Below are positions 26,131-56,934 of a stretch of 64,000 nucleotides of DNA, piece by piece. How positions within the stretch are numbered: the first letter of the stretch is position 1; the number at the start of each line of letters is the position of its first letter. Made by a program: the position numbers and the translations under genes. Origin of the DNA: an uncultured Clostridia bacterium (GTDB lineage: Bacteria; Bacillota; Clostridia; UBA1381); NCBI GenBank assembly GCA_947591315.1, contig CANQDD010000003.1, positions 62,001-126,000 of the forward strand, read 5' to 3'. Below the pieces are notes generated by a model, which worked only from the letters and a program-made list of their open reading frames with translations, was not told where the DNA came from and did not search any database.

Positions 26131-26988
26131 TCATACCAGCAGCTTTGACAAGAAAAATATTGCAATGAACGTTCCCAGAAATATCGCCATCAGCATTGCC
26201 GCTATCGCATAGATCCGGTGGTACTTCGTTGAGAAAATGAATATCACCGCCGCCGCTAAGAGCATCAGCACACCTGTTACGGGCGCTGTTACAAGCTTAA
26301 TCAATCCGAGAAACGCGATGACATACGCGGCGCATATCAGGAACGCGCTTTTCCATGCGCTTCTCATGGATTTAAGTGTCGATTTCTTTATTTCGTCCAT
26401 TTCATCTTGAGTCATTCCCACATGATAAGAATTTCGCGGGGACGTATTTTCGGAGTTGACCGTTGTCCGTTCTGTGTTTACGTACGCGCCTGATGTGCCC
26501 AATCCATGAGTGTGGTATTCATTTTCACTGTTGTCGGCGCCGCACGAATATGGCTGCGTTGGTGAGTTTTCACGGGTGATTTTGATTTCGTTTCCGTCAC
26601 CGAACACGTTTGACAGTGAGCTGTTTGTAATTCTAAAGCGGTTGCCGTGCGCGTCCTCCGCTATTTTTTCATATCCATCGCCGAACACGTTTTGAAGGCT
26701 TGTATTGCGGATTGTATATTCGTTTGATCCGCTGTCCGAATACGGGGACGGGCTTTCGCGCGTGACCTTTATTTCATGTCCGTCACCGAACACATTTGTC
26801 AGCGAGCCGTTTGTGATCCTGAAACGGTTGCCGTGTTTATCCTCCGCAATTTTCTCATAACCATCGCCGAAAACATTATGCATACTTGTGTTTCTGATAG
26901 TGTATTCGTTTCCGTCGTCATCGGTATATATCTGCACATAACCGTCGCCGAAGGTGTTTGTTATGCTCGTATTTCTTAACGTACCCAT
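26131..26988 (-). CDS. Tandem-repeat membrane protein of the WYL/AAA/GIY-YIG module
   Basis: A 285-residue protein. Residues 1-147 are five tandem units of about 28 residues with the core (R-I/T-N-x-S-hydrophobic-x-N-x-FGDG), e.g. EYTIRNTSMHNVFGDGYEKI. Every unit ends in FGDG and is followed by a charged loop (DKHGNRF). A polar linker (148-205) leads to about three transmembrane helices (210-285) ending FFLSKLLV. There is no signal peptide, so the repeats are probably cytosolic. RBS AAGGAGGG. It is divergent from the WYL regulator and its control region carries the operator-like motif at 27027. The repeat family is not one I recognise. Confidence 0.72.
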   Translation of the reverse strand: MGTLRNTSITNTFGDGYVQIYTDDDGNEYTIRNTSMHNVFGDGYEKIAEDKHGNRFRITNGSLTNVFGDGHEIKVTRESPSPYSDSGSNEYTIRNTSLQNVFGDGYEKIAEDAHGNRFRITNSSLSNVFGDGNEIKITRENSPTQPYSCGADNSENEYHTHGLGTSGAYVNTERTTVNSENTSPRNSYHVGMTQDEMDEIKKSTLKSMRSAWKSAFLICAAYVIAFLGLIKLVTAPVTGVLMLLAAAVIFIFSTKYHRIYAIAAMLMAIFLGTFIAIFFLSKLLV

Positions 26989-27026
26989 GAAAATCCCTCC
27001 TTGATTTTACAGTATCACATTTTATA

Positions 27027-27041
27027 TGCAAAAAATTGTAC
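27027..27041 (-). promoter_or_regulatory. Operator-like motif, copy 1 (repeat protein / WYL gene)
   Basis: On the minus strand GTACAATTTTTTGCA; it is the exact reverse complement of the copy at 28081. In the direction of the repeat-protein gene, TTGCAT, 16 bases and TAAAAT follow, the same layout as before the AAA gene. It lies between two divergent genes. Confidence 0.7.
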
Positions 27042-27103
27042 TGTACTGTTTTTCGTACATCTAATATGGTATATTTATATTAAAGAAAAGGAGCTGAGAA
27101 AAA

Positions 27104-28078
27104 ATGAAGCTTACGGCAAAGGCTAACACGATATGCCTGTGGGAGATTCTCAACGAATATTCAGACTGCGACAATATCCTCAGAATGAGCGATATAATTT
27201 ACAAAATGAGACGCGACTATGATTTGTCCGTTGACCGCCGCACGGTTTACAGCTGCGTAGCGGTGCTGACGGAAATGGGGTACGATATTTCCATACCCGA
27301 TGAAAACGGGCGCGGATACTACCTCGCCTCGCGCGATTTCGACGTGTCGGAAATCCGGCTGCTCACCGACAGCGTGTGCGTCAATCCCGGCATATCGGGC
27401 GTTCACTCAGCGCAGCTTATAAAAAAGCTTCAAAAGCTGCTGCCGGTCGGCAAGCGCCATAAATACAAAAATCTTTCAATCGCGAACGCTGGCAGGAAAA
27501 CCGATAACAGGGAGGTTTTTTTGAATATCGACTATCTTGACGAGGCAATCTCAAAACGCAGAAAGGTAGCGTTTACATATATGAAATACGGGTTTGACAA
27601 AAAGCTGAAGCCGCGCCGCGAGGAAAAGTATATCGTAAGCCCGTATGAAATGGTCGCCGCGAACGAGCGGTACTATCTGCTCTGCAAATGCGACAGCCAC
27701 GAAAACGCGGTAAGTCAGTTCAGAATCGACAAGATAAAGGATATTGAGATAGTCGGCGGCAAATATATTCCCGCGCCGGAAAGCTTTTCGCCGAAGCAGT
27801 ACCGCGACAGGTCGGTGTTTATGTATGGCGGCGAGGTCGGTCATGCGGTTATACGCTGCGATAACGGTATGCTCGATCAGGTAATTGACTTTTTTGGCAA
27901 AGACGCGCGTATCGCTCCGAACGGCGACGGGAAAACGTTTGATCTCACCGTCACCGGCAGCCTCGAGGGACTTAGCTACTGGGCGGGGCATTACATCGAC
28001 ACATGCGAGGTGCTCGAGCCCGCGGGTATGCGCGAAAGCGTGATGAACGTGATAAGGAATAACGTGTACGGAATATAG
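27104..28078 (+). CDS. WYL-domain transcriptional regulator
   Basis: A 324-residue regulator. A winged helix-turn-helix occupies residues 1-75 (VDRRTVYSCVAVLTEMGYDI), the WYL ligand-sensing domain about 145-235 (KYIVSPYEMVAANERYYLLCKC, FRIDKIKDIEI), and a WCX C-terminal domain about 240-320. WYL proteins commonly control phage-defence genes by sensing nucleic-acid ligands. Here the gene is central to a module and operator-like motifs lie on both sides of it and before the nuclease gene, so it probably controls all three targets. RBS AAAGGAG. Confidence 0.9.
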   Translation: MKLTAKANTICLWEILNEYSDCDNILRMSDIIYKMRRDYDLSVDRRTVYSCVAVLTEMGYDISIPDENGRGYYLASRDFDVSEIRLLTDSVCVNPGISGVHSAQLIKKLQKLLPVGKRHKYKNLSIANAGRKTDNREVFLNIDYLDEAISKRRKVAFTYMKYGFDKKLKPRREEKYIVSPYEMVAANERYYLLCKCDSHENAVSQFRIDKIKDIEIVGGKYIPAPESFSPKQYRDRSVFMYGGEVGHAVIRCDNGMLDQVIDFFGKDARIAPNGDGKTFDLTVTGSLEGLSYWAGHYIDTCEVLEPAGMRESVMNVIRNNVYGI

Positions 28079-28080
28079 AT

Positions 28081-28118
28081 GTACAATTTTTTGCACACCG
28101 ATTATGATATATTATAAT
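28081..28118 (+). promoter_or_regulatory. Operator-like motif copy 2 and promoter of the AAA gene
   Basis: GTACAATTTTTTGCA (28081-28095) begins 2 bases after the WYL stop codon and overlaps the -35 TTGCAC (28091-28096). TATAAT follows at 28113-28118 after 16 bases. A bound regulator would block the promoter. Confidence 0.7.
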
Positions 28119-28148
28119 TATAATAAACGATTGGCGGGGGTGGAGAAA

Positions 28149-30131
28149 ATGATATTGTACAAGATAACGGCAAAAAGAAGTATCACAGAAGACGACGTCA
28201 ATGAAAATCAAGCCGGTATAATCAGAAACAACACAGAGAAGCTGTACAGCAATTCGGGGAAAAAGTGTATAGCCGCGGTAACGGAGCTTGACAATGACTA
28301 CTGTGAAATAGCCGCGGCGGTCAAGGCCGAAGCCGCGCGCGAATACACTCCGGAGAAAATCGCTGATATTATAGGCGGCATGAACGGCTGGAATCTTTCT
28401 CATGTGAGCTCATCGGAGCTTGTTGTGCGTGATTTCAAAAAAGCTTTGCGTGAAGCGGAGATGGGGAATTTCATCATAAGCTATAAAAAGCTCCTGTGTG
28501 ATATAAAAATCAATCCGCATAACGGTACAGATGACGAGTGTATCGCCGAAACGCTGCCGCGCTCTGAATTCGGGAGCCTTGCGGAAAACCTGCTTTGCAA
28601 AAGCACGCTGCTGCCGGAAATCGACCGTATATTCAAGCAAAGGAATATGACGGGCAGACTGTTTCATCCTGTGCACTACATAATCAAATCCGACAGCAAA
28701 CGCGACGATAGCGAGATTATAAACTGCTTGATAAGCGCGCTTTACGAAAACGACCGCCTGTTATCGGAAAGATACGCGACGGTAGATTTTTATACGAACG
28801 ATTATATTGACGAGGACGACTTATCCAAGCTATACGAAACTCATGCGGGCGGCACGGTAGTTGTCCGTATGTATCCAGAAGAGGAAAACAACAATCCGTT
28901 CTGCAGATCCGATCCGGATGAAAATATGCAAGTCCTGATAAACGTGATAAATAAGTACAACGACAATACTCTTACGATTGCCGTTTTCCCATGCGGGAAC
29001 ACAAAGGAAACGGGGAAGCTGTATCAGGGCGTGCTCTCACCGTTTGTGGAGATATACACCGAAAACGCGTCCGGCGGCGCGGCAAGGCAAAATCTTATCC
29101 ACCGCGCAAAACGCGCCGGAATGGAGTGCGACGGTGAGCTGACAGATGTTGTAAAAGATAACAAAACCTACTGTCCGTCAGAACTTAGCGAGCATTTCGA
29201 GCGATGGTACAAAAAGAAAACCACAGCGCAGCTTTATCCGCAGTATGCACAGCTTACAAACGTCAGTTCGGCGAAATCTGAACCGGGCAGCGGCGCTGCG
29301 CTCTGCGCGCTGAACAGTATGGTCGGCTTGTCGGCAGCAAAGGAAGTTATACACAAAGCGCTCGATTTCTACAAGGTTCAGCGAATGTACCGCGAATTCG
29401 GGAAACAGCGCAAAACGCTGTCCATGCACATGGTATTTACCGGAAGCCCCGGTACCGCGAAAACAACAACGGCGCGGCTTTTCGCGGAAATTTTAAAGGA
29501 TAACAGCATAATCACGAACGGCAGACTCGTCGAGGTCGGGCGCGCGGATTTAATCGGCAAATATATAGGTCATACTGCGCCGCGTGTAAAAAAAGCGTTT
29601 GCGGATGCGAAAGGCGGAGTGCTGTTTATCGACGAGGCGTATTCGCTTCTCGACCACGATAATAATCTTTACGGCGATGAGGCGATTAACACCATTGTGC
29701 AGGAAATGGAAAACAGACGTAATGACACGATTGTGATTTTCGCGGGATATACAAATGAAATGGAGCAATTCTTAGACCGCAATCCCGGACTGCGCTCACG
29801 AATAGCGTTTAATGTTCCATTCGAGGACTATACTCCGGAGGAGCTTCTTAAAATCGCCGCGCTTATGGCGGACAACAAGGAAAACAAAATCGCTCCCGAC
29901 GCGAACGGTAAGCTGCTCGGCATATTCCGTGACGCGTCAAAAGCGGAGAATTTCGGCAACGGACGATTTGTGAGAAATATCATGGAACAAGCCGAAATGA
30001 ACCGCGCGAGCCGCATCGCGAAAACGGACGCGGCGAAGATAACGCGCGATATGCTTGAAACATTTACAGCCGACGATTTTGAATATGCACCTCCGAAGGC
30101 GATAAAGAATGGAATAGGGTTCGCAAGATAA
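28149..30131 (+). CDS. AAA ATPase, CbbX/SpoVK type, with long N-terminal region
   Basis: A 660-residue ATPase. The C-terminal AAA+ domain (about 385-640) has Walker A GSPGTAKTT (about 432-440), Walker B VLFIDEAYSLL (about 491-501), the pore-side GRADLIGKYIG and arginine-rich sensor NPGLRSRIAF; CbbX, SpoVK and EccA share this type. The N-terminal 380 residues look like a degenerate AAA fold plus lid, ending DNKTYCPSELSEHFERWY, with no Walker A. It forms ring assemblies in known relatives and remodels protein partners; the partner here is likely encoded in the module. Start ATG 28149 (RBS GGTGGAG). It is the only enzyme of the module besides the nuclease. Confidence 0.85.
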   Translation: MILYKITAKRSITEDDVNENQAGIIRNNTEKLYSNSGKKCIAAVTELDNDYCEIAAAVKAEAAREYTPEKIADIIGGMNGWNLSHVSSSELVVRDFKKALREAEMGNFIISYKKLLCDIKINPHNGTDDECIAETLPRSEFGSLAENLLCKSTLLPEIDRIFKQRNMTGRLFHPVHYIIKSDSKRDDSEIINCLISALYENDRLLSERYATVDFYTNDYIDEDDLSKLYETHAGGTVVVRMYPEEENNNPFCRSDPDENMQVLINVINKYNDNTLTIAVFPCGNTKETGKLYQGVLSPFVEIYTENASGGAARQNLIHRAKRAGMECDGELTDVVKDNKTYCPSELSEHFERWYKKKTTAQLYPQYAQLTNVSSAKSEPGSGAALCALNSMVGLSAAKEVIHKALDFYKVQRMYREFGKQRKTLSMHMVFTGSPGTAKTTTARLFAEILKDNSIITNGRLVEVGRADLIGKYIGHTAPRVKKAFADAKGGVLFIDEAYSLLDHDNNLYGDEAINTIVQEMENRRNDTIVIFAGYTNEMEQFLDRNPGLRSRIAFNVPFEDYTPEELLKIAALMADNKENKIAPDANGKLLGIFRDASKAENFGNGRFVRNIMEQAEMNRASRIAKTDAAKITRDMLETFTADDFEYAPPKAIKNGIGFAR

Positions 30132-30152: not shown

Positions 30153-30190
30153 AACAGGTCGGGGAAGCTCCCGACCTGTTTGTGGGTTAA
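30153..30190. terminator. Bidirectional terminator between AAA and GIY-YIG genes
   Basis: AACAGGTCGGG and CCCGACCTGTT form an 11-base stem between the two convergent genes. The T-tract is TTTGTG in the plus direction and TTTATTTAT in the minus direction. Confidence 0.75.
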
Positions 30191-31335
30191 TTTGTCTTTT
30201 TCTTTTTAAATTCGCCGTTAGCTTCAAAGTTGAAAAAGATCTTTTGCCAATACTCACCGTTGATGTACTCGGAAAAATCAATATATTTGCCGATAAATTT
30301 TTCGCGCAGTGCCGTAAGCCTGTTCTTATCATCCTCGGATGTCAGATCCGCTTCAAAGAACATTCTGTATTTTCCTTTTTCAAGAGTTCTGTTTTTAATC
30401 TGATTCTTTATCTTTTTATATTCCGATTCGCGTATATCCTTAATAGCAGACGGAAGCTTTTTTTTCGTTTCCTTTAAATCCTTTTTTTGTATCCAGTTTT
30501 TTTCATCTTTGTTGACGGAGTAAATACCCACAATCTGCGATTGATATAACGCGAAAACATATTCGATTTTATCGAGCCGTTCCTGTGCAACATCCCAAAA
30601 TCCGCTTGCCGCGTCAAGTATTCTATTTTTCTCGTCGTCGAAGCCTTTACAGAAATTAGGATATAAATGATTTATCTTTACAAACAAAATCCCGCATCCT
30701 TCTGCTGCCGTCTCTACGGTACATCCTTTGAGCTCCTGATATACGTCAAGAATTTCGGACAGCGGCTTCGCGGGCTCGACGCAGTTTGTCTCAAAGTCCT
30801 CAATTTTTTGTGCTTCGGTTTTGCAATAACGATTTTCCTTTTCTTTTTTGCTCATATGTCCGTTTGCAATATTGGTCAGAGGATTTTTACTGTCGATAAA
30901 CTTATACATATTTATAAGCGCGGATTCGACCATGTATGCCTCATCATTTGTAAGTCCCCATTTAACTATAACCTTAGTTACGTTGCCGCTGCCGAGGTCT
31001 TTTATTCTTTTGTATTTTTCGCTGAGTTCATTTTCAAGCTTTGAACGAAAATCTTTTACTTGCTGTTTTTTCTTCGCTTTTTTCTCTTCGTCTTCCTCCT
31101 CATCGGAAGAATTTTTATTGAGTTCCTCTTCAAATTTTCTGACTTCCTCATCAATTTCTTCCTCTTTTGCGTGGGCACCCTCTTCATGCTGCCATATTCG
31201 CCCGCCCTCGCCTTTTCCTATATAAAACGGCTTCTTGTCTGCATCACACAGCATATAAACATAATATTTTTTCTTATCATTCCCTTGTCCCAGCGTGTTG
31301 CATATCAATTCCTTGTTTAATTCTTTGTCCTCCAT
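30187..31335 (-). CDS. GIY-YIG endonuclease-domain protein
   Basis: A 382-residue protein. The GIY-YIG domain (about 23-145) has KYYVYMLCDADKKPFYIGKG with the VYM and YIG tripeptides (Tyr27, Tyr38), Arg46 and catalytic Glu137 (YMVESAL). A highly charged coiled insertion (55-110) splits the domain, as in LEM-3-like nucleases. The C-terminal 180 residues (ILFVKINHLYPNF, ASGFWDV, FALYQSQIVGIYSV) resemble an EVE-like accessory domain. The gene is convergent with the AAA gene, and its own promoter region carries the third operator-like motif (31426). A DNA- or RNA-cutting effector is a plausible role but is not shown. Confidence 0.82.
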   Translation of the reverse strand: MEDKELNKELICNTLGQGNDKKKYYVYMLCDADKKPFYIGKGEGGRIWQHEEGAHAKEEEIDEEVRKFEEELNKNSSDEEEDEEKKAKKKQQVKDFRSKLENELSEKYKRIKDLGSGNVTKVIVKWGLTNDEAYMVESALINMYKFIDSKNPLTNIANGHMSKKEKENRYCKTEAQKIEDFETNCVEPAKPLSEILDVYQELKGCTVETAAEGCGILFVKINHLYPNFCKGFDDEKNRILDAASGFWDVAQERLDKIEYVFALYQSQIVGIYSVNKDEKNWIQKKDLKETKKKLPSAIKDIRESEYKKIKNQIKNRTLEKGKYRMFFEADLTSEDDKNRLTALREKFIGKYIDFSEYINGEYWQKIFFNFEANGEFKKKKTN

Positions 31336-31408
31336 AACAATTCCCCTCTCATATAAAATTTTTATTTTACATATTGTACCACAAAACTATAATTTTTGCA
31401 ACACATCA

Positions 31409-31441
31409 ATTATATCACAATATATGTACAAAAAATCGTAC
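31409..31441 (-). promoter_or_regulatory. Operator-like motif copy 3 before the GIY-YIG gene
   Basis: On the minus strand GTACGATTTTTTGTACA (31441-31425) matches the motif at 27027 and 28081, here with symmetric GTAC ends. GATTTT, 17 bases and TATAAT (31414-31409) form the probable promoter. Confidence 0.68.
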
Positions 31442-31510
31442 TGTTTTCCCGTATCAAGCCTGACACCATTGCGGTGGATATACGACTTACTGATTAAACT
31501 GTGCCATCTG

Positions 31511-31578
31511 TAGCAAGCAGTGTTCTTGTGCTACAAAAACGTAAAAATGAAAATCCCGCCTAACGCAAGATTTCCATT
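31511..31578. repeat. Short shared repeat, copy at 31511
   Basis: TAGCAAGCAGTGTTCTTGT, CAAAAACGTAAAAA and AAAATCCCGC are shared with 53356-53424 beside the Z1 gene, in the same orientation and order. The 3' half is a stem (AATCCCGC with a GC-rich partner) and may be a terminator. Confidence 0.68.
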
Positions 31579-32158
31579 TTTGCTTGTTGGGGATAATTCC
31601 CCAAACCCCAAGAACAAAGGCTTACACCTTTGAGCCACGCCCCGGAACGGGGCTTTTTGCTTTTGCTCAAGTTGAACAAAAGCGGGATAATTAAAAATTC
31701 CTCCACATACTAAATATTTTATTTTCATTAAAATTTTGAAAACAGGGGTCACAAAACCTCGATTTCATTCCATATAAGTGAGAGGACAATTCAAAAAAGT
31801 CAAACAAACCTTAAAACAGACGTGTACAAATGCTTCTTTTCAACGCCTACATATTGGGAGGGTAAAATCTTGGACCATTCCTCTCCCAAAAACTTAATAA
31901 GTCATTCATCAGGCACATTGCCGATTGAAGGAGCTGTGCGGACCGGGCGCGATAACCTTTTATTAAAGCGAGCGACAAACCGGATTTGCAATCTTTGATT
32001 TGCCGTCAAAGACGCGACGAGAGCAATCGGGTACAATGATACTTCCGTAATTCGCGGCTCGGTCATAAAGAAGACGGAGAGGTTAAACTCCTATGGAGCG
32101 ATTGACAAATCGCCGCTTGATGAGGACAAAAATATTTCATCAAAGGGAGCGATATTAC
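31579..32158. other. Degenerate element backbone, includes right copy of the direct repeat
   Basis: There is no supported gene here. A GC-hairpin (CCCCGGAACGGGG) lies at about 31640. 31727-31930 is the right copy of the 200-base direct repeat. The rest up to the xis gene reads like coding debris (ACCGGGCGCGATAACC, AAGAAGACGGAGAGG) without an intact frame. This is what remains of the genes normally to the left of xis in Tn916-like elements. Confidence 0.6.
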
Positions 32159-32359
32159 TTGAAGTATGAAGTACCAATATGGGAGAAATTCACATTGAGC
32201 ATAGAAGAAGCAGCGGCGTATTTTAGAATAGGCGAGAATAAACTGCGTCGCATTGTCAGTGAGAATCAAAATGCTGATTTTATTCTGTGGAATGGAAGCA
32301 GACCTCAAATAAAACGAGAAAAACTTGAGTCCGTAATAAACGATATTCATAATATATGA
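32159..32359 (+). CDS. xis: Excisionase, Tn916 Xis-like
   Basis: A 66-residue excisionase. The start is TTG 32159 with AGGGAG 9 bases upstream, giving almost the length of Tn916 Xis (67). The sequence VPIWEKFTLSIEEAAAYFRI, then GENKLRRIVSENQNADFI and NGSRPQIKREKLE, follows Tn916 Xis closely. It directs excision by the integrase encoded 95 bases downstream. Confidence 0.92.
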   Translation: MKYEVPIWEKFTLSIEEAAAYFRIGENKLRRIVSENQNADFILWNGSRPQIKREKLESVINDIHNI

Positions 32360-32454
32360 GATTAAAATCACTTTAAACGGTTGAATTTTTGATGAGGATA
32401 TGATAAAATATTACAGTACATTTTATTACGGCTCTAATCTGAAAGGAGATTTCT

Positions 32455-33723
32455 ATGTCAGAAAAGAGACGAGATAATAAAGGGAGGATACTTCTTCCGA
32501 ATGAACGACAAAGAGCCGATGGAAAGTACGAATACAGATATACAGACAGCACCGGCAAAAAGCACAGCGTTTACAGCTGGAGGCTGGTTGCCACCGACAA
32601 AACTCCGCAAGGTAAAAAACATTCCGAGCCTTTACGGGAAACAGAACGGAAAATCAAACGGGATTTAGAAGATGATATTGATTCATTTAATGCGCGGCGT
32701 ACAACGCTAAATCATTTTTATGAAGAGTATATTGAATCGAAATTTGAACTCAAGCAATCAACAAGAACAAACTATAAATATATGTATGAAAAGTATGTTG
32801 CGGATTGCTTGGGTAGGAAGAAAATCTCGGAGATAAAATACAGCGATGTAAAAAGGTTTTATATCCATCTGATAAAAGATATAGGATTTAAACCAAACAG
32901 TATGGAAGTAATCCATACAATATTGCATCCTGTGTTTTCTGTTGCGGTTCGGGACGGCTACATACGTACAAATCCGACTGACGGAGTTATGGCAGAAATA
33001 AAGAAAATCCATGATTGGAAGAAAACCAAAAGACACGCGCTGACTGTTCCTCAACAAGAGGCATTTGTGAACTTTTGTTCCGCAAACGCTCAATACAGTC
33101 ATTGGATGACGATATTCACGTTTCTTTTGGGAACAGGATGCCGTGTGGGCGAAGCTGTAGGCTTACGCTGGGAAGACTGTGATTTTGAGGAAAATATGAT
33201 TTCGATAAATCATAATCTTATCTATCGCAAGCAAGATAACGGGAAATGTGAATTTCATATCACAACACCAAAAACATCTGTGGGAACGAGAATAATACCG
33301 ATGTTCTCCGCCGTAAAAACCGCATTGACGCAGGAATACGAACGGCAAAAGCTTACTGGTTTCAATATGGCAGAGATTGACGGATATTCAGGATTTATCT
33401 TTATGAATCGCTTTGGTGATGTTATGTCCCCTCATTGCATAAACAGGGCAATAGACAGAATTGCAAGAGATTATAACGAGCGGGAGCGTATCAAAGCTGC
33501 GGAAGAACACAGAGAGCCGTTAATACTTCCTCATTTTTCGGCGCATAATCTGAGACATACATTCTGTACTCGATTTTGTGAGAATGAAACAAACATCAAA
33601 ATCATTCAAGAGATAATGGGACATGCGGACATCAGCACCACTATGGATATTTACAACGAAGCGACAACCGAAAAGAAGATTGAGAGCTTCGCCAATCTTG
33701 AAGGTAAGATTAAAATATGCTGA
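32455..33723 (+). CDS. int: Tyrosine integrase, Tn916 Int-like
   Basis: A 422-residue tyrosine recombinase. The N-terminus MSEKRRDNKGRILL and YSWRLVATDKTPQGK is the arm-binding domain of Tn916 Int. The core-binding domain spans about 85-185. The catalytic domain (about 195-410) has Arg in GTGCRVGEAVGLRWED, HNLRHTF with His/Arg, and the tyrosine nucleophile in TMDIYNEAT. It recombines the lysS 3' end. Direct repeats TACCACTTTT just after the gene (about 33731-33753) may be its arm sites. Confidence 0.96.
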   Translation: MSEKRRDNKGRILLPNERQRADGKYEYRYTDSTGKKHSVYSWRLVATDKTPQGKKHSEPLRETERKIKRDLEDDIDSFNARRTTLNHFYEEYIESKFELKQSTRTNYKYMYEKYVADCLGRKKISEIKYSDVKRFYIHLIKDIGFKPNSMEVIHTILHPVFSVAVRDGYIRTNPTDGVMAEIKKIHDWKKTKRHALTVPQQEAFVNFCSANAQYSHWMTIFTFLLGTGCRVGEAVGLRWEDCDFEENMISINHNLIYRKQDNGKCEFHITTPKTSVGTRIIPMFSAVKTALTQEYERQKLTGFNMAEIDGYSGFIFMNRFGDVMSPHCINRAIDRIARDYNERERIKAAEEHREPLILPHFSAHNLRHTFCTRFCENETNIKIIQEIMGHADISTTMDIYNEATTEKKIESFANLEGKIKIC

Positions 33724-43518: not shown

Positions 43519-46500
43519 TTAATATTTGTAATCAGGCTCCAACATTTCAAACAACGTCTTGTCATGGTTATGAGCAAGATATGATTCGTCGTCCAAAATC
43601 ATCATCGCCATATTTTCTCTGTCATACGCTTCCCATTCGGGCAAGCCGTCTGCCGACGGAACTCCGGTTTTTGCAAAATTCGCCCATGCCTCGCTCATCG
43701 TATCGGCGAGCTTATCGTCGGCACTGCCGAATACAAACGGAATTTCCGCGCCGTGATACGAGCCCATATCGCCGATTTGCTTTGTGAACAAATACGCGTA
43801 AACCTTCGCGCCGTTCTGGTCGGCTTTATGCGACATGATTTTCAGCATCGGCTTTCTTATCAGCGTATCGACGTAAACAGCCGTTTCGGGTGCTTCGTTG
43901 GGATACGCTTTTTCATACTCAGCTTTTTCGGCGTCGGTCATATCCGTATGCGCCTCCGTCGGTATCCACATTGACCACTCGTTGAGATTGCTGCCTATGA
44001 GCAGCGGAATATCCTTTCCCGCCTCCGCGAAGCCGTTTTCGAGAACGGGGTCGGTCGGGAGAAAATCGCCGTCCACAACGGGCTCCCACTCATAAGCGTA
44101 GCCTTCGCCGAGCGATACGGGTATTTTATACTTTTCCGCGACCTCTGCCATAGCCTCATTGGACGCGTTCTGGATTTCCGCGTTTGATTTATTCTGTATT
44201 TCATCTACCGTTTGAGCGGTAAGTCCGAGCTTTTCAAGCGTCAGCGCGCCTATTTCCTCACTGTGTTCTTTTTTCGCAAAATACACGCCCATTCCCTCGG
44301 TAGCGCCGCTTTCGACTATGCCCTTGCCGAACAGTCCTTTCGCGTATGGGCTTGTCATAAGCGCGAGTACCTTCGCGCCGCCGCCCGATTCGCCGAATAC
44401 GGTCACATTGGAGCTGTCGCCGCCGAAGCTCTCAATATTATTTTTTATCCATGTAAGCGCGTCGATAATATCCCAAATGCCTATGTTTTCGGAATATTTG
44501 TACTTCTCGCCGTATGATGAAAGGTCAAGATGTCCGAACACGTTGAGCCGGTGATTTACGCCTACGACCACAACGTCTTGATTTTTCGCAAGATTTGCGC
44601 CATTAAACTGTTCCTCGTTCGCGCTGCCCGACGAAAATCCGCCGCCGTGCAGCCATACCATAACGGCGCGCTTTTTGCCGTCATTCGCGGGCGTCCAGAT
44701 ATTGAGGTTCTGACAGTTATTGCTCGTTCCGTCGCCGGAATCAATGTTCGTTCCGCCAGCGATCGCGCCCTGCGGCGATGTATTGCCGTACTGCGTCGCG
44801 TCGCGCACACCGTCCCACGGCGTTACCGCGTCGGCTCTCACAAACATTTCCTTTGCCTCTGCATAGGGTACGCCGAGATATTGATAAACGCCGTCCGTAT
44901 AGCTGCCGTGAACCTGCCCCGCCGTCGTTTGAGCTATCGCGGAGCTGTCGCTTGTACCGCGCGCCGAGGTATATTCCTCCTCCGTTACGGCTTTGTCCCA
45001 CGTTATTTTATCGTTTCCGGGATCGCCATTTACCGCGATATACGCAAAATTACCGTCAGCCGCGCCGTGCCAGTGCTTCACTCCCGGCGCAGCCGTTATC
45101 ACGTCGCCCGCCTTTATAATCCGCGGCTCGCCGCCTTCCTCTTGGTAAACGCCCGTGCCGTTAGTTACGGCGATTATCTGACCGCCCTCGTGAGAGTGCC
45201 ATGCTGTGCGCGCTCCGGCTTCAAATGTGTAATTGTTCACTTCGGGGCAGTTCCATACGCTCTCATATTCCACGAGCGTGTTTTTATGGATCGTTCCCGT
45301 ATAACCTTCGCCGCTGAAGCTGTTTCCGATGGGGAACATTGTCGTATTATCAACAGTTCTCGCGGGCTGCGCCTTTGCCTCTGCGACAAACTGCGCGTAT
45401 TCCTCATCGCTTACCTTTTCAAACCAGTTCGTTGTTCCCGCGTTCGGATTTGTGGAAAGCGCTATATGCGCGAACCAACTGTCGTCCGCCGCCGCGTGGA
45501 CGTGCTTTTTGCCCGGAGGAATGAGAATAACGTCGCCCGGCATCATATACCGCGCGTCCTCGCCCTCCATTTTGAATATACCCTTGCCCTCGGTCACGAG
45601 GAGTATCTGCTCGCCGTCGTGAGAGTGCCAGTCTGTTCTCGTACACGGCTCGAACGTCACCAGTCCCATTGACGGGATCTTCATTGTTTCGTCATAGCCG
45701 GTAAGAAAATTCAGATACGATGTTCCCGTAAAATTCGGGACGGGGTTTTCGCTGCCGCGCGGAAAAACGTAATTGATTTTATCCGCGTTCATAATAGTCA
45801 CGGTTTGCGTATCTGAGTTCCACATCACCGTGTAACCGAAGCTCTCCGCGATAAAGCGTATCGGGAGCATTGTGCGGTCGTTTATTATGACCGGCGTAAC
45901 GTCGAGCGTCTGCGCCTCGTCGTTTAAGTACGCTGTCGTGCTGTCAATAGTCAGCTTTATCACATTGCCGTTGTACGCGAGCGTAGCGGTTTTTGCGCTT
46001 TCGTCCCATTCGACCGTGCCGCCTATGCCCTCGACAAACGCGCGGACAGGAAGCAGAGTTCTGTCGTCGATTATAACGGGAACAGTGCCGTTTTCGTCGA
46101 TATTCTTTTCCGCGCCGTTTATCGTCATGACGGGATCGTTTATCCGCATCGTAACCGTTGTTTTATCCGATTGTGCCGGCGCGGCGTTCACCGCCGAATT
46201 TATCGCGCTCATGATATTGAGCGTTCTGGGAAAACCGTTGTACGGCGTGCAAAGGAGCGCGGCAGCAAGCATTGTGTCGGCAGTATTGCCCGCCGCTATA
46301 TTCGCCGCGTAATTTGCGGGAACCTCGTCCTCGCGTCCGCCCTGTGCCGCTATGACGGTCAGGTCGATAAGCGCCTTAGCTTTCGCGTCGTCCGACGTGG
46401 GAACGGCTGTCCCTTCGATCACCGCGTTTACCGTATTTAAGATAACCTCCTGCGTCTTGGCATCGAGATTTTTGTCTATAAAACCGTCCTTGTCGTCCGC

Positions 46501-47382
46501 GTCATAATGCGCGATTATTCCCAAAAGCTCCTCGCTGTCGCTCTTGTAGGAGGTCGTTATCGTTTCCGTTTTTCCTGTCGGCTCTGTCGGAGCGGTTTTA
46601 CTTTCGCCGCTGTCAACCGTGTTTATTACGCTTAACGCAAGCGCGGTCTTTTCCGCGCCGTTGTATTTTTCGTTGAGCAACACCGCCGCGCGGAGCATAT
46701 CAGCCGAATGACCGACGTTCAGATTACCGTTCGCGTGTCCCATAAGCTGACCGCCGCAGTTACCATTCGCGACGATCGTGCAGAACGTCAGGAACTCGCG
46801 CGTGTAAAGCGAAAGACCTGTTCTGTTATAAAAATCGCCGAAGCAAATTCCCGACAGATAAAGCGTTTGCAGCTTCATAGCCTCGCTCATATCGTCCGTG
46901 ATAGTGCCAATCTGCGGACCGAATAATTCACGCTGCACATTAAGTCCGTCGTTATATCTATTTTCCTCGGTCGAGGTTATGCGGCTCGAATACGGAATAT
47001 CCTTTCCGAGAGATTTCAGCGCCTCGTCCGCCGCGTCGAGCGCACCTGCGGCGCGTGTGTAGCCGCAGTATGCCGCGCTGTGATATATCGCCTCTTTGAT
47101 CTCGACCGCCGTAAGTCCGTCGTCAAGAGCGGCTTTCACCTCGTCGGCGACCGCGTCATACGCTCGGTTTGCGCTTAATGTCGCAAGCGTTGACAAATGC
47201 TGCATTTTTACATCAAGATTTTCATTTACAAATTCCGTTTTCTCAGTGTCGCTCATGCTCGTAAGCGTATCCGTCAGCACCGCCGTGTCGGTCGATTTCA
47301 AATCAACGTCCGCCGCAAACACCGTTGTCATGCCCGCAAGCGTAATCGCGAGCGCGGTAATTATCGCTAATACTCTTCTCAT
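43519..47382 (-). CDS. Giant exported fusion: decarboxylase-like x3, stalk, cupin x2, carboxylesterase
   Basis: A 1287-residue protein with signal peptide (1-23). Three carboxymuconolactone-decarboxylase-like (AhpD-fold) units lie at about 45-125, 140-255 and 285-400, and two stalk repeats at 410-530 (RTLLPVRAFVEG, RTMLPIRFIAES). Cupin 1 at about 560-645 has WHSHDGEQ and a late KKHVHAAAD. Cupin 2 at about 700-790 has WHSHEGGQ and VKHWHGAAD, so both keep the metal histidines. A type B carboxylesterase spans about 815-1287, nucleophile Ser999 in GESGGG, oxyanion HGGGFSSG and a late His in SYHGAEIPF. I do not know this architecture from any described protein. It sits in the LysR-linked redox island. 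Possibly a surface enzyme for aromatic or lactone esters. Confidence 0.85.
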   Translation of the reverse strand: MRRVLAIITALAITLAGMTTVFAADVDLKSTDTAVLTDTLTSMSDTEKTEFVNENLDVKMQHLSTLATLSANRAYDAVADEVKAALDDGLTAVEIKEAIYHSAAYCGYTRAAGALDAADEALKSLGKDIPYSSRITSTEENRYNDGLNVQRELFGPQIGTITDDMSEAMKLQTLYLSGICFGDFYNRTGLSLYTREFLTFCTIVANGNCGGQLMGHANGNLNVGHSADMLRAAVLLNEKYNGAEKTALALSVINTVDSGESKTAPTEPTGKTETITTSYKSDSEELLGIIAHYDADDKDGFIDKNLDAKTQEVILNTVNAVIEGTAVPTSDDAKAKALIDLTVIAAQGGREDEVPANYAANIAAGNTADTMLAAALLCTPYNGFPRTLNIMSAINSAVNAAPAQSDKTTVTMRINDPVMTINGAEKNIDENGTVPVIIDDRTLLPVRAFVEGIGGTVEWDESAKTATLAYNGNVIKLTIDSTTAYLNDEAQTLDVTPVIINDRTMLPIRFIAESFGYTVMWNSDTQTVTIMNADKINYVFPRGSENPVPNFTGTSYLNFLTGYDETMKIPSMGLVTFEPCTRTDWHSHDGEQILLVTEGKGIFKMEGEDARYMMPGDVILIPPGKKHVHAAADDSWFAHIALSTNPNAGTTNWFEKVSDEEYAQFVAEAKAQPARTVDNTTMFPIGNSFSGEGYTGTIHKNTLVEYESVWNCPEVNNYTFEAGARTAWHSHEGGQIIAVTNGTGVYQEEGGEPRIIKAGDVITAAPGVKHWHGAADGNFAYIAVNGDPGNDKITWDKAVTEEEYTSARGTSDSSAIAQTTAGQVHGSYTDGVYQYLGVPYAEAKEMFVRADAVTPWDGVRDATQYGNTSPQGAIAGGTNIDSGDGTSNNCQNLNIWTPANDGKKRAVMVWLHGGGFSSGSANEEQFNGANLAKNQDVVVVGVNHRLNVFGHLDLSSYGEKYKYSENIGIWDIIDALTWIKNNIESFGGDSSNVTVFGESGGGAKVLALMTSPYAKGLFGKGIVESGATEGMGVYFAKKEHSEEIGALTLEKLGLTAQTVDEIQNKSNAEIQNASNEAMAEVAEKYKIPVSLGEGYAYEWEPVVDGDFLPTDPVLENGFAEAGKDIPLLIGSNLNEWSMWIPTEAHTDMTDAEKAEYEKAYPNEAPETAVYVDTLIRKPMLKIMSHKADQNGAKVYAYLFTKQIGDMGSYHGAEIPFVFGSADDKLADTMSEAWANFAKTGVPSADGLPEWEAYDRENMAMMILDDESYLAHNHDKTLFEMLEPDYKY

Positions 47383-52216: not shown

Positions 52217-53110
52217 CTACTCCTGTATAACCGTTTTCACCGCCGACAAAAACCGTTCGACGATTTCTGATGGCTTGGGCGAATACAGCACGCCGAACGG
52301 GATATTATATTCCCATTCCACCGGCACTACCTTCATCATCGGGTGAATACAGTCCCAATCGCGGATAACGACAAGCAGATCCTTATTCCGCTCGCAGGTG
52401 TTGAAAACGCCGACGTCGTAAAAATCGAAATCAATTACGTTTATCTGACTGTGATTTTGGAAAATATCGTCGCGCAAAGCGTCAATATATCTGCTCCAGT
52501 CGCGGTGGATAAGCATCAGATTTTCTCCGTACATATCACGCATCGTGAGCTTGTCCTTATTCGCGAGCGGGTGATTTATCGACATGGCGCAGCAGAGCGG
52601 CTCGCGGGCGATCTCAAAGCCCTCGCATTTTCGCAGATCGAGAAGCGTATCATCGAAAATACCCGTCACAATATCTATGTTCCGACCGAGATTTGCGAGG
52701 ATCTCTCTCGCGTTTTCGGGCGTGTTCTCGAATGGGATCAACTGAAAATGAATATCGGGACAATGCTCGTGTATCCTCGGCCATAAGTCCATCAAAATCT
52801 GCGCCGGAGTCATGGGCGATGTGCCGATTCGTATAACATTTTCGCTTTCGCTCATTGCCTGCCGCGCGCGCAAAACCGTTTCGCGCATATACTCTATTAT
52901 GTATTTCGAGTCCTTATAGAGCGAATTTCCCGCCGGAGTAAGCGTAAGTCCGCGGTGGGTGCGCTCAAACAACGGAGCGCCAAGCTCCGTTTCAAGCTGA
53001 TTAACCTGCTTGATAACAGCCGTGGACGTGATAAACATCTCCTCCGAAGCCTTGTTGAAGCTCCCCGCCTCGACTACCCGCACAAATGTTTCAAGCTGCG
53101 TAGTATTCAT
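52217..53110 (-). CDS. LysR-family regulator
   Basis: A 297-residue LysR regulator. The start is ATG at 53110 (10 bases after GGAGGT). The helix-turn-helix is residues 1-60 (LETFVRVVEAGSFNKASEEMFITSTAVIKQVNQLE); the effector domain follows from about 90. It heads the minus-strand island and its gene is directly upstream of the duplicated control region, so it most likely regulates the two redox operons; the inducer is unknown. Codons 14-23 are duplicated as a 30-base fragment at 56893. Confidence 0.93.
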   Translation of the reverse strand: MNTTQLETFVRVVEAGSFNKASEEMFITSTAVIKQVNQLETELGAPLFERTHRGLTLTPAGNSLYKDSKYIIEYMRETVLRARQAMSESENVIRIGTSPMTPAQILMDLWPRIHEHCPDIHFQLIPFENTPENAREILANLGRNIDIVTGIFDDTLLDLRKCEGFEIAREPLCCAMSINHPLANKDKLTMRDMYGENLMLIHRDWSRYIDALRDDIFQNHSQINVIDFDFYDVGVFNTCERNKDLLVVIRDWDCIHPMMKVVPVEWEYNIPFGVLYSPKPSEIVERFLSAVKTVIQE

Positions 53111-53505: not shown

Positions 53506-56500
53506 TCAAATATTTGTTTCTATATCCCGATACGCTTTCGGCATATCACTAAGCGAATCGGTATACATATTTGAGTACAAATCGTTATACGCGCCGCGGC
53601 AGTCGGGACGTTCCTTTTCTTCAAGAATAAGACATCCGCTGTAGCCGCCGTCATACGGGAAATTTTCAACCTTTCGTATGGTGCGGATATATTTTATTAC
53701 GCTGTCGTCGCGTATCATATCCTTTGAATAGCACAGCGCAAAATATTCGGCAAGTGTTTCCTTTACTGCTCTTTGCTTCATAAAATCCCGGTTCTTGTAA
53801 ATCCACCTTCCGCTTTCGGTCATAACATCGGCATAATGCAGCGCGTGGAACATTTCATGCGATAATACGTTTTCAAACATAGCCGCCGCTGTTACCGAAT
53901 GATTTTCACACACATTTAAGATTGTGTTATAGTATAATTGTATTTCGCATTTGCCCGCGCCGGTTATTGTAAAGCAGCCGAAGGTTTCGAGGTTAAAGCT
54001 GACTAAATCCTCCGCTTCGTCAATCAATCGCTGCAGCTTGTCCTTGTATACCGCCTTATTTATTTTGCTGATTTCGTTAATAGCCGCCTCTCTGGTTATG
54101 TCCGTGATATGTATATCCTTTAAATCCGAGAAATAAGCGAGTATTTTATCGCGCCGCAGCATAGAGATTTCCTGCTCAGTCAGTATCTTTTCCGCTTCCG
54201 CGTAAATTTTTTCCAGCCGGCGTTCCGTGTCCTCTTTTGAGCCAATGAAGCCCTCGTCCATTATAACAACGGCACACTCTATCTTTTTCCGCTTTTCCCC
54301 GCTTTCAGGAATATTGTCAATGCGGAACAAGCTGTCGTAATATTCGCGCACATTCTGAACGCCGTCGTTTAATTTCGCGATGAGTTCCGCATCGATGCCC
54401 GCGTTATCCACAACCGGAAAGCTTTCTATTTCAATCGCGGACGCGCTCAGGCTGAAAATGTTTTCCCCGACGCCCGTTCTTTGACTTTCGTCAGCGTAAA
54501 TTCCTACGTTCATGTCTACGGGAGTGTAGTACACGGGCCACCAGAATTTCGCGCCCCATTCGGGATGAGTTTGCTCCGTCAGCACCAGAACCGGCATTTT
54601 CTGACGCAGTATTTTCGCCAGCGCGCCCTCGTTTTTACCGTCGTCAGGACTGTCCTGATACGCCGTTCCGTTACGCTTCATTTTGCTCAGTTTTCTGTTC
54701 GTTCTTACAATCAGCGCAACTCTGTCACCGCTCTTTTCAAGACGGTCAGACATTGAGAACCAGAAAATAGGGTCTAAATCCCTGAATTCATTGCATACTC
54801 CGTCGTCCTTCGGCATGATCACGGAATACGCCTGCTTTATCAATTCATTGGCTGTCTCCGAATCGACAACAACATATTTCCCGTCGGTTGAACTGCCATT
54901 TTCGTATACGGCGTTTGCTCCGGTCAAAATGGCGTTTAACGATTCCAATTCGCGCAATATCTCATCATGCGTCGTATTAGCCAGCTTTTTGTTAATATCA
55001 AATCCAACCGGCAGATATCGTTTTTCCGGCAATATGCTGTTGATTTTGGACGCGAGCACCTTCTGCGGCGAGCAGGATTTAATTTTACCGCCCGCCTCAA
55101 GATATATAACCTCGCCGCTGCTGTCGCTTTTCTGCATACGCGCTCTTAAAATGTTGTCTCGTATAGTGATTTCCTTCATGTCACTGAACAGGCGGTATGT
55201 AGTGTAAAAACGTGTTACCGACAGAAGCTCAGGCGCTCTGTAACCGAACATTCTGCAATGCTGCATAACCGTGTCCTGCTGCATTGTGACGGGGTCGCGT
55301 CCGTAGAAGAAGCTTATTATATTCGGAATAGTTATGCCTCTGTCCAGAACCTGACCGCCGACAAAAATTGTTATTGACGTTTCAAGCTTTAATTCGCCGG
55401 TGTTGCCGTTTAAAAGCGTCATTATGTCGTTATCGCTGTTGATTTCCTTAATGTCTATTTCGGTTATAAGTCCTTCAAGCTCTCCGTCTGAATTTACAGA
55501 TGCTATTCTGTTTATTACCGCGTCAAGCGGCGGCAGAGCAAGAACGCCGTATGCCGAGACGGATTGCGCCAGGTTATTGTATGACTGTTCTGCAAAGAAT
55601 CGGAAATCGGAATCGGATATATTTTCCTCAAGAACCGCCGTGACCTCATTTATCGCGCCCTCAATAAGCTCGCGCTCCTTTTTGTGTAGATTTTTCTGAA
55701 TTGCCGCATGGAGCACAGCGGACACATAATAATCCTCGTTGCCGGGATTAAGCTGTATTATCGCCGCTCCCACAAGCATATCAAAAAGCCAGCTTCGCAT
55801 TGATGGCAGTACAAATGTGGATTTTTTGCTTTGACCGCGCAGAAAGTTTTCTATTTTGACCGTCCGCTTGTCCGAGATTACATTCCTCTTGCCGCTGTTT
55901 TTACGCGAGCCGTTTAGAATACTCATTTCCTCCTGCTCGACAATGTACGGCAGATATTTCGCTTTTTTGTTATGCACAGCCGTTTCATCGTCCGAGTCTA
56001 TAAAATAGTACTGGCCGCCGATATAGCCTTTGCCTGTCGGCAGAACGACTGTCCTGTTCGGCTTGATAGGCATTATATTGTTGTCGGAAAACGACTCAGG
56101 CTGAAGATACAGCGCGTACGGCGTCGCCGTGACCTGCATGAGCGCATGTTCAATATTACTGTGAAGCTGTTTTCGCATAGTGTTGATCGCGCCCGATATA
56201 CGCCGCAGTGAAATGTCGTCGCGCTGCTTTATTTTCTCGTAGCCGATAGAGGTAATATCTGCCTCGTCATCGACGATGAGAATACGCTTATACACATTCT
56301 GCGCTATAAGCTCGCGTATAAACATATTCATTCTGTCAACATTGTCGGCTTGCTTTTTTACGACTATAATTCTTTTTTTGCCGGGGTATCGCTTGAGGAA
56401 TTTCCCGACAATCGCTTCTTTTTCAGACATTGTTTCAGTGCCGCTGAAGTCAATATCGAGAATATCCTGCGCCATAACGTCGCCGACGGTAGCGTTGCCG

Positions 56501-56814
56501 CTGCGGAATCCGCTGAACTCTGAAATCATACGGCTGACTGTCTGACTGACAAGAGCCTTACTGCATTTCGTAAGTATAATTGTCATATCAAAATCATTGT
56601 CGAAACAAAGCGACATAAGACCGATAAACGCTCTTGTTTTGCCGGACTGAATACTTCCCAGAAGCATAATAGGGGAGTATATCTCGTTGTTGATGTTGTC
56701 AAGACAAAGCTGCCCCGCCTGCTCTATGCAGCGCTTAAGCTCGCTTGAATATTTTTCGTTTCCCTCCGCGCTGTCGCCGGTTATCTGCGTATAAAATCTG
56801 CCGTTAGTAATCAT
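53506..56814 (-). CDS. Z1-domain ATPase fused to an HExxH metallopeptidase
   Basis: A 1102-residue single gene. The N-terminal superfamily 2-like Z1 ATPase region (about 1-600) has GSIQSGKT (53-60, Walker A), LIVDDEAD (179-186, Walker B) and VTATPY (228-233, motif III). GGQVLDRGITIP (486-497) and QHCRMFGYR (518-526, motif VI) complete it. The middle 600-900 is unassigned with a beta region. The C-terminal 930-1060 has HEMFHALH (His986, Glu987, His990) and a downstream Glu1023 in LAEYFALCY, the pattern of gluzincin metallopeptidases. Z1 proteins occur in restriction-type defence loci, usually with methylase and ATPase partners; none is near. Its separate position, island-like flanks and repeats suggest horizontal gain. 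ATP-driven recognition coupled to proteolysis is inferred. Confidence 0.8.
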   Translation of the reverse strand: MITNGRFYTQITGDSAEGNEKYSSELKRCIEQAGQLCLDNINNEIYSPIMLLGSIQSGKTRAFIGLMSLCFDNDFDMTIILTKCSKALVSQTVSRMISEFSGFRSGNATVGDVMAQDILDIDFSGTETMSEKEAIVGKFLKRYPGKKRIIVVKKQADNVDRMNMFIRELIAQNVYKRILIVDDEADITSIGYEKIKQRDDISLRRISGAINTMRKQLHSNIEHALMQVTATPYALYLQPESFSDNNIMPIKPNRTVVLPTGKGYIGGQYYFIDSDDETAVHNKKAKYLPYIVEQEEMSILNGSRKNSGKRNVISDKRTVKIENFLRGQSKKSTFVLPSMRSWLFDMLVGAAIIQLNPGNEDYYVSAVLHAAIQKNLHKKERELIEGAINEVTAVLEENISDSDFRFFAEQSYNNLAQSVSAYGVLALPPLDAVINRIASVNSDGELEGLITEIDIKEINSDNDIMTLLNGNTGELKLETSITIFVGGQVLDRGITIPNIISFFYGRDPVTMQQDTVMQHCRMFGYRAPELLSVTRFYTTYRLFSDMKEITIRDNILRARMQKSDSSGEVIYLEAGGKIKSCSPQKVLASKINSILPEKRYLPVGFDINKKLANTTHDEILRELESLNAILTGANAVYENGSSTDGKYVVVDSETANELIKQAYSVIMPKDDGVCNEFRDLDPIFWFSMSDRLEKSGDRVALIVRTNRKLSKMKRNGTAYQDSPDDGKNEGALAKILRQKMPVLVLTEQTHPEWGAKFWWPVYYTPVDMNVGIYADESQRTGVGENIFSLSASAIEIESFPVVDNAGIDAELIAKLNDGVQNVREYYDSLFRIDNIPESGEKRKKIECAVVIMDEGFIGSKEDTERRLEKIYAEAEKILTEQEISMLRRDKILAYFSDLKDIHITDITREAAINEISKINKAVYKDKLQRLIDEAEDLVSFNLETFGCFTITGAGKCEIQLYYNTILNVCENHSVTAAAMFENVLSHEMFHALHYADVMTESGRWIYKNRDFMKQRAVKETLAEYFALCYSKDMIRDDSVIKYIRTIRKVENFPYDGGYSGCLILEEKERPDCRGAYNDLYSNMYTDSLSDMPKAYRDIETNI

Positions 56815-56892
56815 TTTTTATCCTCCGATTAGCGTAATTCAATGCTCACAGGCGCCAAAGGCTTGCCTTTGATACCGTTATGTTTCAATGTT

Positions 56893-56922
56893 CTCCGAAG
56901 CCTTGTTGAAGCTCCCCGCCTC
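56893..56922 (+). repeat. 30-base exact duplicate of lysR coding sequence
   Basis: CTCCGAAGCCTTGTTGAAGC followed by TCCCCGCCTC is identical to 53042-53071 inside lysR and in the same orientation. It lies just upstream of the Z1 gene start. The two copies bracket the Z1 gene at a distance of 3.85 kb. Confidence 0.85.
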
Positions 56923-56934
56923 AAAAGCAAGAAA

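Follow-up and report, generated by a model that had tools for sequence, protein, structure and literature searches.

A clostridial gene that looks like a rare union of a restriction-system-type motor protein and a zinc-protease-like domain

In a 64,000-nucleotide stretch of an uncultured Clostridia bacterium (contig CANQDD010000003.1, positions 62,001 to 126,000; hereafter the window), a single gene was found to carry both the Z1 ATPase motifs and an HEMFH motif with a downstream glutamate. This rare combination of a restriction-system-type motor protein and a zinc-protease-like domain in one clostridial gene may constitute a one-gene defence device. The initial annotation had placed all of these motifs on one 1102-residue chain; each was located, and the same full-length fusion was present in three other assemblies (L009, L010 and L011), so a frameshift or misassembly was rejected as its origin.

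The fused chain and its conserved motifs

The gene and its parts are as follows (window coordinates).

53506..56814, minus strand: fusion gene, 1102-residue chain, with full-length homologues L009, L010 and L011
54490..56814, minus strand: part of the fusion gene before the linker region
56635..56658, minus strand: Walker A motif GSIQSGKT, residues 53-60 (Q56-T60 invariant in 55 aligned proteins)
56257..56271, minus strand: Walker B type motif DDEAD, residues 182-186 (invariant in the same 55)
55324..55359, minus strand: GGQVLDRGITIP, residues 486-497 (G486, G487, D491-G493 and T495 invariant in the same 55)
55237..55263, minus strand: QHCRMFGYR, residues 518-526, inside DTVMQHCRMFG
54025..54489, minus strand: linker region, residues 776-930, fast-evolving (27-28% identity to L009 and L011) and largely helical (helices from a model)
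53509..54024, minus strand: zincin-like domain, residues 931-1102
53845..53859, minus strand: HEMFH, residues 986-990 (HE[MI]FH in all four fusions)
53737..53763, minus strand: KETLAEYFA, residues 1018-1026 (E1019 kept in all four fusions and in the free-standing L008)
56822..56826, minus strand: GGAGG, likely ribosome-binding site, from a reading of the sequence

The segment DTVMQHCRMFG matches the motif pattern DThhQXuRhFG given by Iyer et al. (2008). None of the three full-length homologues lacks the HExxH residues, a loss which the initial annotation had named as evidence that would count against its reading, HE[MI]FH being retained throughout the four fusions. With its downstream glutamate this forms a gluzincin-type signature, in which E1019 is likely the third zinc ligand. 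A chance occurrence of HExxH was rejected. An inactive domain is disfavoured because the motifs are kept in all three homologues and because of the ratio of nonsynonymous to synonymous substitution rates (dN/dS) in the single unsaturated pair. The curated Pfam cut-off of 25 for Peptidase_M91 (PF14891) was not reached, the best score being 24.1 bits (L011) and that of the window domain 14.5 bits.

A free-standing cousin of 369 residues (L008:1180-2286, minus strand) also has HExxH and the glutamate, and matches the zincin-like domain with 95% profile probability across 76 columns. The two share HExFHxxHY, GRW, AVxExLAxYF and an SLxDMxKA end, but L008 has no ATPase module and stands alone. Among 67 genomes of its order, one near-copy (97%) was found, in a genome of the same genus.

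Neighbouring genes and known systems

The fusion gene is flanked in the window by a LysR gene on one side and a SigB/F/G-like sigma factor gene on the other. The initial annotation had proposed a search for the same fusion and its neighbours; the fusion recurred as described, but at L010 and L011 neither of these genes adjoins it. The claim that no methylase or nuclease is adjacent was borne out within the scope covered: a pattern test found no methylase motifs in the 44 window open reading frames of more than 180 residues or within 6 kb at L010 and L011, and the fusion protein and three scanned neighbours gave no Pfam match to a PLD/B3 restriction nuclease (E 1).

The locus thus lacks, by these tests, both the methyltransferase gene and the fused or separate PLD/B3 nuclease of CglI/NgoAVII-type restriction-modification, whose N-proteins are known to have dsDNA-dependent ATPase activity (PMC4267653). 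Among the closest known systems, one group of proteins works together with a separate PLD nuclease and a C5 methyltransferase and has another C-terminal domain, whereas the fusion has a zincin-like extension and no partner was seen. Against MzaC of the MZA system (PADLOC, NCBIfam) the fusion protein scores 72.8 bits, short of the equivalog cut-off of 1500, and no MZA genes were seen nearby. The GHKL/MORC - SF2 helicase - restriction operons are multi-gene, unlike this one-gene fusion, and the portion of the source available mentions no peptidase (PMC2292703). A zincin-like domain is likewise joined to a bacterial conflict-system protein in the zincin fused to pPIWI-RE (PMC3702460). The Lit protease of Escherichia coli, in which phage infection sets off a protease, is comparable to the mode of action proposed for the fusion; its trigger is a capsid peptide, and the passage on it names no ATPase (PMC9712102).

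Comparison with a sibling genome

In the sibling genome G026 nothing matches the fusion protein. Its homology to the window (92-96% identity) runs to 53426 and restarts at 56923, exactly where the second copy of a 35-bp direct repeat bracketing the fusion gene ends.

53037..53071, plus strand: direct repeat copy 1, within the start of the LysR gene
56888..56922, plus strand: direct repeat copy 2, a LysR-type coding-start fragment, 94% identical to copy 1 and bordering the sibling homology

Because of these boundaries, little beyond the fusion gene itself is foreign to G026, but the flanks lie about 42 kb apart there, separated by accessory and metabolic-looking genes, and do not demonstrate a clean empty site. 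The repeat is possibly the scar of an insertion. A housekeeping gene is disfavoured.

At 26131-30131 the window encodes a 285-residue repeat protein, a WYL-type regulator and an AAA protein, which, as read from the sequences, have relatives adjoining LysR in G026 (L116), there with a PDDEXK_4 protein in between; the two arrangements point to rearrangement. By eye, a low-GC stretch (30187-33723) holds a GIY-YIG-like protein (30187-31335) and a tyrosine-recombinase-like protein (32455-33723), and a 1287-residue chain (43519-47382) has a signal-like start followed by carboxymuconolactone-decarboxylase-like, cupin-like and carboxylesterase-like parts.

Possible functions

The interpretation as a single-gene abortive or defence device is partly supported, and the ATPase/HExxH fusion itself was confirmed. 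Tentatively, the protein may be an immune machine encoded by one gene and needing no methylase, with a DNA-tracking module, driven by ATP, in direct control of the fused metallopeptidase. It would patrol DNA and, where a restriction enzyme cuts nucleic acid, destroy protein. Equally tentative candidates for its target are an essential host protein and phage proteins of the replication or DNA-bound kind.

The pairing of a DNA-type motor with an HExxH domain in a single chain, encoded by a gene solitary among ordinary genes, would also suit an accessory, non-immune DNA-maintenance machine, whose motor brings the peptidase to clear DNA-stuck proteins; this seems unlikely. The SPRTN/Wss1 proteases offer a parallel in logic for such clearing. 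That the HExxH domain acts as a metal-dependent nuclease rather than a protease, so that nuclease and ATPase would be fused as reported for CglI/NgoAVII but with a different nuclease fold, is quite unlikely. The flanking LysR and sigma factor genes could suggest an ATP-dependent protease with a regulatory part in host stress or differentiation, with these neighbours as part of the system and no immune role, but they are not kept beside the fusion gene at L010 or L011, and same-genus genomes without the fusion still carry relatives of the flank genes, so this is very unlikely. Should the immune, protein-destroying role prove true, the fusion would be a protein-targeting counterpart of restriction enzymes.
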